From a virus, in the IMG/VR virus record IMGVR_UViG_3300020119_000151, positions 1 to 53,856 of that record: DNA of 53,856 bases; one strand, written 5' to 3'. Each line of letters starts with the position of its first letter. Position 1 is the stretch's first letter. Of this stretch, positions 42,904-50,483 are shown piece by piece. The position numbers were made by a program, and so were the translations under genes. Below the pieces are notes generated by a model, which saw only the letters and a list, made by a program, of their open reading frames with translations, did no database searches and had not been told where the DNA came from.

Positions 42904-43121
42904 GCCTGTATCTGCCATATCTCGGTAAGCCGTCCCGTAAGCGTCGGCGCAAGTGGAAACGGCAGCTTTTGAGGCTTAATCCTGGGTTAAATCCCAACTG
43001 GTTGGATGCGCGATATGCGATTGCTTTTATCCACACATACCACCGGCACAAGAATTTTTGTTCAGCAACCCAGTTTTGTGGGCGCTCTGCAAAAGACCAG
43101 TTGGAAGGGTTTAAGCTATGA
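42900..43121 (+). CDS. Small very basic protein
   Basis: A 73-residue protein overlapping both neighbours by ATGA. The first 30 residues are strongly basic (PSRKRRRKWKRQLLRLN), and Cys/His residues follow. It is probably a nucleic-acid-binding accessory of replication; no family is recognised. Confidence 0.55.
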   Translation: MSLYLPYLGKPSRKRRRKWKRQLLRLNPGLNPNWLDARYAIAFIHTYHRHKNFCSATQFCGRSAKDQLEGFKL

Positions 43122-43273
43122 GCAAGAAGTCGATCAACTGGAAGGCCGTTAAGCAGCGCGAGGCGCATTTCCTGAAACATGGTGCGTTTCCTTCGGAATT
43201 TCCCACCACGGCGGCGAAGGTGAAGCAGTCCAAGAAATCGGTGGTTTTGATTTACGGCCAAGGCAGGCGGTAG
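43118..43273 (+). CDS. 51-residue basic protein
   Basis: ATG 43118 overlaps the upstream stop by ATGA, and the frame ends at TAG 43271-43273. The product is lysine-rich (starts MSKKSINWKAVKQREAHF) with helix then strand. The coupling supports it as a gene. It is the last reading frame before the tRNA-like gene. Confidence 0.55.
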   Translation: MSKKSINWKAVKQREAHFLKHGAFPSEFPTTAAKVKQSKKSVVLIYGQGRR

Positions 43274-43312: not shown

Positions 43313-43389
43313 GCAGAGGTCGTCTAATGTCACAAGACGCTGGACCTGAAATCCAGTGGATGCGGGTGGAATGCCCGCCCTTTGCGCCA
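43313..43389 (+). tRNA. Atypical tRNA-like gene, anticodon TGA, CCA encoded
   Basis: A complete 77-base cloverleaf. Acceptor GCAGAGG pairs with CCTTTGC (one G-T). The D-stem is GTCT/AGAC, the anticodon stem CTGGA/TCCAG with loop CCTGAAA (anticodon TGA, Ser), the variable loop has 5 bases, the T-stem is GCGGG/CCCGC, and then comes G plus CCA. T8-A14 and A15-T48 core pairs are intact. Odd points: base 33 is C not T; the serine-type long variable arm is absent; the D-loop lacks GG and the T-loop is TGGAATG instead of TTCxAxx, yet 19-56 would still be a C-G pair. It may be a specialised or altered-identity tRNA, or a decaying one. Confidence 0.65.
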
Positions 43390-43406
43390 ATTTCGACAAT
43401 GAATCA

Positions 43407-43459
43407 CCCGTTCAGGAATCGCCGGCTGTCGCGGCATCCTGGACGGGCTTTTTAATTTT
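43407..43459 (+). terminator. Rho-independent terminator after the tRNA-like gene
   Basis: An 11-bp outer stem (43407-43417 with 43437-43447, one G-T) with an inner GCCG/CGGC stem, followed by CTTTTTAATTTT. It ends the early operon and lets the RNA candidate downstream be transcribed separately. Confidence 0.8.
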
Positions 43460-43471
43460 CCCATTTTTCTC

Positions 43472-43499
43472 TTGCATGGGGTGGGACAGCGGTGATACA
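43472..43499 (+). promoter_or_regulatory. Putative promoter of the structured RNA
   Basis: TTGCAT (43472-43477), 16 bases, then GATACA (43494-43499). The same -10-like GATACA with 16-base spacing occurs at the minus-strand cassette promoter. Transcription would begin about 43506, exactly at the first helix of the RNA candidate. The -10 is not consensus. Confidence 0.4.
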
Positions 43500-43505
43500 A
43501 CCTTC

Positions 43506-43670
43506 ATGTCAGCGCAAGCTGGCCGGTCTGTGAGAGGACCGTTGCGAGAAAAATGAAACCACGAAATTTCAATGCTGCCGTTGTGCCGACCTTTCCCAAA
43601 GGGCGGCAATTCGGTTCCTCCTGCCCGTCCTTCTCGCGGACTCTCACCGGCGCGACGGTAGCATTGAACT
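43506..43670 (+). ncRNA. Structured, pseudoknot-rich RNA candidate
   Basis: No open frame explains this 165-base segment. Helix 1: 43508-43513/43518-43523 with a GCAA tetraloop. Helix 2: 43524-43528/43537-43541, stacked directly on helix 1. Its loop 43530-43536 can pair perfectly with 43641-43647. Helix 3: 43544-43550/43631-43637. Helix 4: 14 bp, 43568-43581/43655-43668, with one G-T. Hairpin 5: 43584-43608. Helices 3 and 4 cross, so they are either a pseudoknot or alternative states. Helix 4 ends six bases before the ribosome site of the gene at 43683. It may be a leader switch, a ribozyme or a stand-alone RNA; no known class was matched. Confidence 0.55.
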
Positions 43671-43682
43671 TTTGAAGGTCTA

Positions 43683-44132
43683 ATGAAAATTAAAGTCGTC
43701 AATAACAGCGTGGATGAACAGGCAAACCACCGCTCTAATTTCACAACCTGCCCCCACTGTTACCACGAAATGAAAAGCGAAGTGTGGGAAAAGGCGGTTA
43801 CCATCATCGCGCTTGAACCCCGTTGCTACAAGTCCGGTTGCGTGGCGATGATCTCGGAATGCCCCGAATGCTTCAAGCCGTCCTGGGTGCATTGGCAGAT
43901 GGACCATTTCGACAAATGGAGCAGTTGGCCGAAGCACGTTCAGGAAGCTGTCTCCAAAAAGGGCGAGGCCGTCAAGCTCTCCGCCTTGCGGACATGGGGC
44001 CGCTGTATCTGCCATTCCTGCAAGCATCTTACCTCTGGAAAGGTCCAGTTCACCGCATGGCGTGAATGCAAGCGGGGATTCGGGCCGGCGGTGGAAGTCA
44101 AAGAAGGGTGTGAAACCTACGAAAAAGTATGA
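43683..44132 (+). CDS. Zinc-binding protein downstream of the structured RNA
   Basis: A 149-residue protein with GAAGG four bases before its ATG. Cysteine pairs occur at CPHCYHE, CYKSGC, CPECF and CICHSC, enough for two zinc ribbons. The end carries further Cys. It may bind nucleic acid. If the RNA upstream is a leader, this gene would be its direct target. Confidence 0.6.
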   Translation: MKIKVVNNSVDEQANHRSNFTTCPHCYHEMKSEVWEKAVTIIALEPRCYKSGCVAMISECPECFKPSWVHWQMDHFDKWSSWPKHVQEAVSKKGEAVKLSALRTWGRCICHSCKHLTSGKVQFTAWRECKRGFGPAVEVKEGCETYEKV

Positions 44133-48638: not shown

Positions 48639-50429
48639 TCACGACCTCTGCAACTGGCGGCGCTGGCTGCTTTCTTGGTAATCCTTCAGGAGAGCATCCA
48701 GCCCGTCAGGTTTCTTTTTCTTCTCGATCTCCTGCCCGATGCGTTGGATTTTGAAACCGCGCTGGCGAGCCCCTTCAACGGCGATGGCAAACCAGTCGTA
48801 CAAGTCGGGCGAAATCTTGATGCGCTCCTTCATTTCGTCCTTCGGCTCGACTTCGACCTTGTTGCCGGCGACGACTTTGAACAGGCGAAGCTGACCTTCG
48901 TTCGCAACGATGCGGGGAAGGTTTCGGACTTGCTGGGACTCGATGGCTTCGCGTGTGGAGAACCACATTTCGGTGACAAATTTCGAATAGTGTTCATCGC
49001 AACGCTTCAGGCGCTTGCCACCGGATGCCGCCTTGTCCTCAACGTAAAGGTCAAACCGGACGGGCCGCGCGGTGGGCTTGGCGCCGGAATCCACCGGGAT
49101 GGGGCAGGTATGGCCGAACACCTTGGCAAATGCGTTCCCCAGCGTACCGCGCCCGAATGAATCATAAAATCCGTTCTGTGCCGGTATGTTGGCCTGGTCC
49201 ATTCGCATCTTCATGAACTCCGCAATCTGGTCTTCAGGCTCGACGGAACTGTTCACCCTGATCGGCAGGATTTCAGGTGTGCCGACTGAAAGAATTTGGA
49301 TGCCGCCAAGCTCGTACCCGATGCGGATTGAGCCGACAACGCATCTGTCCCCGCCGCCATAGGCCGGGTCACAGGCATAGATGTCCGTAAAGCTTGGACC
49401 GTTCCAGATCGGCGCGTCAAAAGCCTTGTTGCGGGTGCAAAGCCCGATGGTGATGACACGGTTGCTCACCATGCCCTTGGATGGCTTGCCGATGGCTTGC
49501 TGGTAGAACTGCCAGGAATCTTCGCCGTGAGTGGCCTTCATCAACTCGACGAAATCGCTGCCGATGAGAAACGGGAAGCTGTCCTTCGGCTCGTCGTTGT
49601 TCGGCGTGTCGCGCCCGTCGAACGCAACCACCCATGCCTTGTACCAGCGCGAGCGCCATTCCTGGGTAACCTTCGTGTCAATCCAAGCTTCCCAGCCTTC
49701 TTCCGGTTCAGCCGCGGTGCACAGCGGGTCTGAAATGTCGGTGGGGTTTCCACCCATGACACCTTTGAAGCCCGGACTGACCATCCAATTTGCGTAAGCG
49801 TCCAGAAACGAGGGTTGCATCACCGCCGCCTCGTCGCCGTAGTGCTTCAGGATGCCGTCATTCTTCCCGGGCGAGTGCGGGGGCTTGGCACCCTGAAATT
49901 TTCCCATGCCGACAAACCTGCCGCCGGAGACGCAAGGCACACAGACGATGCCACGGTTCAATTCCCGGGCCATTTCGTTTTCGTCGTCGATGTCGTCGGG
50001 CGTGATTGCCATGTGCGATTCGAGGATGAAGCCGCCGAGCCAGGACCGTTTTTTCTTGGCGCGATTGAACAGCGTCTTTACGCGACCCCAAACTTTGATC
50101 TCAAGCGAACGCTTTTCGGTGGAAGAAATCAGGCTGAAAGATGTCTGCGGAAAGCAGAAGAAATCAATTAGGGCATGGACGGCGAACAGGTAGGTTTTGT
50201 TTGAGGATGCCGGGCCAAGAAAGACCGTGATTTTTTCCTGAACGATGCGGGTGATGCCTTTCACAAACCAGCGATGCTGCTTGTCCTCGGGCCAAAGGAT
50301 GCGGTGTGCGGCGAGGTAATGGGCTGGCTTTTCTTCCACTGGACCCTGCTCGATCATCCAAAATTCGATGTACAAATCATCGGTGCCAACCGGCCAGTTC
50401 TTGCCGTATTTCTCGAAGGTGTCAGCCAT
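48639..50429 (-). CDS. terL: Terminase large subunit
   Basis: A 596-residue protein; ATG 50429 is preferred to a GTG three codons upstream. Walker A is GPASSNKT (72-79), Walker B ends in DE (199-200), and the C-terminal nuclease has CDPAYGGGDRC (Asp354, Asp361), FYDSFGRG (Asp423) and a late PDLYDWFAIAVEGAR acidic site. It cuts and pumps DNA through the portal. It is alone on the minus strand, diverging from the fibre gene, far from portal and capsid. No small subunit lies next to it. Confidence 0.88.
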   Translation of the reverse strand: MADTFEKYGKNWPVGTDDLYIEFWMIEQGPVEEKPAHYLAAHRILWPEDKQHRWFVKGITRIVQEKITVFLGPASSNKTYLFAVHALIDFFCFPQTSFSLISSTEKRSLEIKVWGRVKTLFNRAKKKRSWLGGFILESHMAITPDDIDDENEMARELNRGIVCVPCVSGGRFVGMGKFQGAKPPHSPGKNDGILKHYGDEAAVMQPSFLDAYANWMVSPGFKGVMGGNPTDISDPLCTAAEPEEGWEAWIDTKVTQEWRSRWYKAWVVAFDGRDTPNNDEPKDSFPFLIGSDFVELMKATHGEDSWQFYQQAIGKPSKGMVSNRVITIGLCTRNKAFDAPIWNGPSFTDIYACDPAYGGGDRCVVGSIRIGYELGGIQILSVGTPEILPIRVNSSVEPEDQIAEFMKMRMDQANIPAQNGFYDSFGRGTLGNAFAKVFGHTCPIPVDSGAKPTARPVRFDLYVEDKAASGGKRLKRCDEHYSKFVTEMWFSTREAIESQQVRNLPRIVANEGQLRLFKVVAGNKVEVEPKDEMKERIKISPDLYDWFAIAVEGARQRGFKIQRIGQEIEKKKKPDGLDALLKDYQESSQRRQLQRS

Positions 50430-50483
50430 TGGAATCACAATACGCTTGCCATAAAGGAAATTCCATGCGAAAAGTGAATCGTC

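Follow-up and report, generated by a model that had tools for sequence, protein, structure and literature searches.

The contacts that hold the tRNA elbow together, U55-G18 and C56-G19, have been described as conserved across the three domains of life (PMC7912444). Departures on the D-loop side are found in bacteria, in the staphylococcal non-proteinogenic tRNA-Gly that are read as Gly and used by Fem enzymes, otherwise complete molecules in which GG18-19 is replaced (by UU or CU) and which avoid EF-Tu, carrying the weak T-stem pairs A49-U65 and A51-U63 (PMC4052509). On the T-loop side, one consensus among the interlocked T-loops of T-box riboswitches is UGxRA, with a G in second place (PMC7583486). 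In phages, changes in the anticodon loop let tRNAs evade host anticodon nucleases (van den Berg 2023, PMC10264068), T5 tRNAs counter PARIS AriB, for which the D-loop base U16 matters too (PMC12409363), and such evasion is known for retrons too (PMC11555353).

The DNA analysed here (the window) is a viral record of 53,856 bases with an exact 127-base end repeat, and is therefore probably a complete phage genome. The phage encodes a DnaB-like helicase, RusA, Erf and an exonuclease VIII-like protein, and the gene at 48639-50438 (-) is a putative terminase large subunit, judged by size and sequence since no family model matched it, whose sole relative in genomes lies on a 5.5-kb contig of an Anaerolineae MAG. 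The window holds one tRNA gene, with the following features (arms as parsed from the sequence).

43118..43273 (+): small co-directional ORF of 51 aa, with no Pfam match, ending 39 nt upstream of the tRNA
43313..43389 (+): tRNA gene with re-paired elbow, anticodon UGA and encoded CCA (Rfam RF00005, 46.9 bits; unique in the window in our own cloverleaf scan); acceptor strands GCAGAGG, followed by UC, and CCUUUGC, and a single G between D-arm and anticodon arm
43322..43338 (+): D-arm GUCU-AAUGUCACA-AGAC, loop 43326-43334 without GG, proposed U18 at 43330 and C19 at 43331
43340..43356 (+): anticodon arm CUGGA-CCUGAAA-UCCAG, C33 at 43346, anticodon UGA at 43347-43349
43357..43361 (+): variable loop UGGAU, 5 nt, not a serine-type long arm; U48 able to pair with A15
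43362..43378 (+): T-arm GCGGG-UGGAAUG-CCCGC, G55 at 43368 and G56 at 43369; U54, A57, A58 and G53-C61 kept
43386..43389 (+): discriminator G73 and encoded CCA
43407..43453 (+): strong intrinsic terminator, 11-bp stem CCCGUUCAGGA/UCCUGGACGGG followed by CUUUUU, starting 17 nt after CCA (from the sequence and the fold of 43390-43690)

The original prediction of a complete cloverleaf with encoded CCA was borne out, as 21/21 stem pairs form (one of them the G-U pair 4-69) and a covariance-model scan with lax filters gives 46.9 bits against a cut-off of 29 (E 3.4e-9), a score obtained again, above the gathering cut-off, when the whole record was searched. Our own structure-only scan scores the tRNA at 23.6, versus at most 16.6 in the rest of the window and a maximum of 18.6 in 20 shuffled windows (+ strand). 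Its fold has a z-score of -2.9, but the lowest-energy structure of the naked sequence differs from the cloverleaf. Neither ARAGORN nor a fast gathering-mode Rfam scan detected the gene, presumably because its loops are without the usual seeds. What it has in common with RF00005 tRNAs, besides cloverleaf and CCA, is the set of core tertiary bases (U8, A14, A15-U48, A21, G53-C61 and U54-A58), and its departures are limited to 18-19 (no GG), 33 (C), 55-56 (GG) and 60 (G), so that it is without G18, G19, U33, U55 and C56 and neither canonical elbow contact (G18-Psi55, G19-C56) can be drawn.

One explanation of these changes is decay, the gene being a relic of a captured tRNA in which the bases at 18, 19, 33, 55 and 56 mark loss of function, and C33, the missing Ser-type long arm, the absence of the tRNA from related phages and the lack of homologues would all fit. 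We consider it quite improbable, because no stem pair and none of the other tertiary bases is damaged, the changed positions (elbow and U33) being loop invariants, because the encoded CCA and the adjacent terminator are retained, and because whole tRNA arrays elsewhere show matched changes of this kind (see below).

The anticodon loop can be read directly, and it has the TGA anticodon, the C33 in place of the U of the anticodon U-turn and the absence of a long arm that had been noted at the outset. A shifted register of this loop, which would give Phe GAA, was rejected since the stem no longer pairs. Of the marks of class II serine tRNAs, the UGA anticodon and G73 are present and the long variable arm is not, which together with C33 makes normal decoding of UCA as Ser doubtful. 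An unusual identity, in the sense of an altered codon meaning, had also been suggested and is unsupported, UCA aligning with Ser at 42% in the genes of the phage versus 44% for the other UCN codons, so that UCA reassignment was rejected. Codon compensation was rejected as well, since UCA makes up 15% of Ser codons and is not enriched. Neither recoding nor codon supply therefore explains the gene.

Two proposed escapes fared differently. Escape from modification holds by inference, for Psi55 (TruB) and Gm18 (TrmH) cannot be made on a tRNA without U55 and G18. Escape from EF-Tu is not indicated, because G49-C65 and G51-C63 are present instead of the weak pairs of the staphylococcal tRNA-Gly, although these share with the window tRNA (UC) the replacement of GG18-19. 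That shared loss (PMC4052509), the lack of any codon need and the weakened decoding expected from C33 are what would favour a tRNA working outside translation, either as a decoy or bait presented to an anticodon nuclease or to a host protein that binds tRNA, or as an off-ribosome aminoacyl donor like the staphylococcal cell-wall tRNA-Gly. The retained G51-C63 pair argues against such a role, as does the composition of the phage proteins scanned (part of the ORFs), among which no tRNA synthetase, aminoacyl-transferase or Fem-type enzyme family was found, and we assign it a low probability. An integrase family was likewise not seen among the proteins scanned.

The elbow itself had been described as an exchange of bases, G18-G19 for U-C and U55-C56 for G-G. 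G55 and G56 are seen directly and the D-loop indeed has no GG; the assignment of U18 and C19 holds in one of three registers that are possible for this 9-nt loop, and the register is thus not unique. In that register, C19-G56 can stand in for G19-C56 as a Watson-Crick pair, whereas a U18.G55 (or A18.G55) contact would require a different geometry, U18.G55 not being isosteric with G18.Psi55. The T-loop UGGAA, like UGCRA, fits the UGxRA class of the T-box Stem I interdigitated motif (PMC7583486), which differs in that it interlocks two T-loops in other RNAs, while here the partner is the D-loop. Taken alone, however, the exchange is weak evidence, because 45% of simulated random 9-nt D-loops hold a partner compatible with G55-G56; U-C itself would be expected by chance in one of three registers in about 18% of cases.

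Homologues could have strengthened the case, and none was found for the window tRNA, be it at the DNA level in phages or, under the patterns used, in viral contigs or in 84,980 genomes of bacteria and archaea (0 matches for the swapped-elbow pattern including the anticodon). Swapped-elbow patterns gave chance matches only in viral contigs, and the loop-pattern matches there failed stem pairing, those in the L185 and L290 phages excepted. One candidate (L235) pairs in its acceptor and T stems but was rejected, because it lacks an anticodon arm and because we estimate that chance alone would give about 0.4 cases of this sort. The related phage G001 and the other phages with which the window phage shares terminase or helicase yielded no tRNA, and the window pattern occurs in 0/301 Chloroflexota genomes, Chloroflexota as host phylum being itself uncertain. 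A recoded elbow as a host trait was rejected too, since A18/G55 matches in Chloroflexota occur at about the control rate, with one real tRNA-Met among those inspected. The window tRNA is thus a singleton, for which purifying selection is not measurable.

The search for homologues with the same T-loop, although it returned no true homologue, did yield two mutually unrelated phages with recoded tRNA arrays, to which a T-loop-only pattern search of viral contigs led among the matches listed. There are hence at least two elbow-recoded array phages, IMGVR_UViG_3300032397_000008 and IMGVR_UViG_3300050010_000571 (as a pair, our G010 and G011), of 83 kb with 22 tRNA matches (G010) and 39 kb with about 19 (G011), and among these two and the window phage there is essentially no relatedness.

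G010:21001-41000 (L300): A18/G55 tRNA array
G011:19318-39317 (L303): A18/G55 tRNA array

Nearly all tRNAs of both phages combine a D-loop A18-G19 with a T-loop G55-C56. The exceptions are instructive: (i) the T-loops of Ser(CGA) in both phages and of Arg(UCU) in G011 read UGG and their D-loops offer C19, which makes three tRNAs of two unrelated phages with the C19-G56 pair proposed for the window, (ii) Arg(UCG) in G011 has G55-A56 with A18-U19 (U19-A56), (iii) Ala(UGC) in G010 has C55-G56 with G18-C19 and (iv) one G010 tRNA has a U-C-C T-loop with a normal GG D-loop. These cases favour the compensatory reading of the window elbow. The arrays resemble the window tRNA in their G55 T-loops with matched D-loop changes, and one of their Pro(UGG) tRNAs also has C33; they differ in that they contain many tRNAs, A18 and, in serine, long arms, whereas the window has a single recoded tRNA, with U18 and no long arm.

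Covariation at 18-19/55-56, set beforehand as the test of the prediction, was thus found, in analogous tRNAs rather than in true homologues. Among 115 distinct cloverleaves, T-loop UUC goes with D-loop GG in 58/60, and xGC goes with AG in 40/44 and with GG in 2. In G010 and G011 the pairing rule is obeyed by 34/35 elbows, whereas within-phage shuffling of the T-loops (5,000 trials) gives 25.0 on average and 32 at most (p about 0.0002), and a base other than C at 56 goes with absence of a purine-G in the D-loop (hypergeometric p 4.7e-4), p-values that treat the tRNAs of one phage as independent, which is not fully true, and that include four tRNAs parsed by hand and an 18-55 pairing rule that was set once the data had been seen. 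Units that count as independent are the phages G010 and G011, the single Gln tRNA of L083, a Met tRNA of L055 and an initiator-like tRNA-Met of Chloroflexota. The last, on a genome contig (L405, 7563-7634, -), has A18/G55, scores 62.1 bits, and shows C1.A72 and a GGG/CCC anticodon stem; the contig also carries an ordinary tRNA and a T-box leader, so a cell is apparently able to live with an elbow of this type. In four cultured phages that have tRNA arrays, the canonical elbow is kept almost throughout.

With nearly all tRNAs of two unrelated viruses showing matched replacement, a genuine variant of the tRNA fold seems a better description than decay. The same recurrence weighs against drift, by which a chance compensatory change, of no use for escape, would have arisen in a phage tRNA that is redundant, leaving a marginal adaptor or an idle gene; changing almost every tRNA alike in two unrelated phages is hard by drift alone. 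Redundant phage tRNAs are weakly constrained, the window tRNA is a singleton for which codon usage gives no reason, and the Gln tRNA of L083 is the lone elbow-changed member of an otherwise canonical array, all of which speaks for drift, and we regard it as somewhat unlikely, the strongest competitor of the reading that we prefer.

Our preferred reading, to which we give slightly less than an even chance, is that this phage tRNA works, or once worked, with a re-paired elbow, which may have been selected because it escapes host factors that recognise the canonical form. Its L-shape would be kept by C19-G56 in place of G19-C56, by U18.G55 in place of G18.Psi55 and by the UGxRA-type T-loop, and it would belong to a recurring group of elbow-recoded phage tRNAs (A18/G55 arrays, and C19-G56 in some Ser/Arg tRNAs). 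The tRNA would most likely be transcribed by read-through from upstream genes, ending at the adjacent terminator, then be processed (RNase P, CCA maturation) to the encoded CCA and charged, and it would serve, or have recently served, as an adaptor, the likely pressure being escape from host modification enzymes at 18, 54 and 55, or from defence nucleases. The data themselves establish the gene, its fold, the base changes and the return of matched changes in other phages, whereas expression, charging, adaptor use and selective cause are what we infer here. A sigma-70-like promoter for the tRNA was looked for and none was found, and the 51-aa ORF is a possible source of the read-through.

A broader proposal, which we hold to be unlikely, is that some phages recode the elbows of their tRNAs (A18/G55, C19-G56, U19-A56) and thereby hide the pool from host enzymes or defence nucleases that read the canonical elbow, so that translation continues even as modification or destruction befalls the tRNAs of the host. 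The window tRNA would then be a fully inverted single-gene example. To our knowledge, the phage tRNAs known to evade nucleases keep a canonical elbow. The window tRNA is like the published examples (PMC10264068, PMC12409363) in its anticodon-loop change (here C33) and in a plausible counter-defence role, and unlike them in that both elbow partners are replaced. A changed elbow combined with C33 would plausibly extend the nuclease-dodging theme, and this is the cause that we prefer, with modest confidence.

No paper describing A18/G55 or otherwise elbow-altered phage tRNAs was found in the open-access literature, and whole phage arrays with re-paired elbows are more surprising than the single window gene. 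Natural tRNAs with matched replacements mean that the elbow can be re-encoded, which (i) offers ready-made orthogonal tRNA scaffolds and (ii) makes testable a phage counter-selection on elbow reading by modification enzymes or defence nucleases. tRNA finders lean on G18, G19, U55 and C56. ARAGORN detects many of the array tRNAs of G010 and G011 but not the recoded Ser(CGA) genes, and since it also missed the window tRNA, this suggests that phage tRNA content is under-counted.

Several minor observations were made along the way. Downstream of the tRNA, the region 43390-43690 folds with a z of -5.5 and matches no Rfam family; it contains, at 43564-43672 and just upstream of an ATG at 43683, a long hairpin that is nearly perfect (arms of 25 nt with 84% complementarity, loop of 59 nt), whose loop holds at 43597-43612 the sequence CAAAGGGCGGCAATTC, with 14/16 bases complementary to the 3' half of the tRNA at 43369-43384 (GAATGCCCGCCCTTTG), a complementarity that could be chance or a tRNA-sensing leader. 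The terminase of a related phage (L011, 9995-12748) has an apparent insertion with intein-like features between its conserved parts, and a gene for a TnpB/Cas12f-like protein lies close to the tRNA array of G011 (L303, 18693-19838, -). Lastly, A54 and U58 are exchanged relative to the normal U54-A58 in T-loops of G010 (L300: AGCGTTA, AGCATTA), of G011 (L303: AGCATTA, AGCGTTA) and of the cultured Pseudomonas phage UNO-G1W1 (L391: ATCGTTA), which is a second natural swap in the T-loop.
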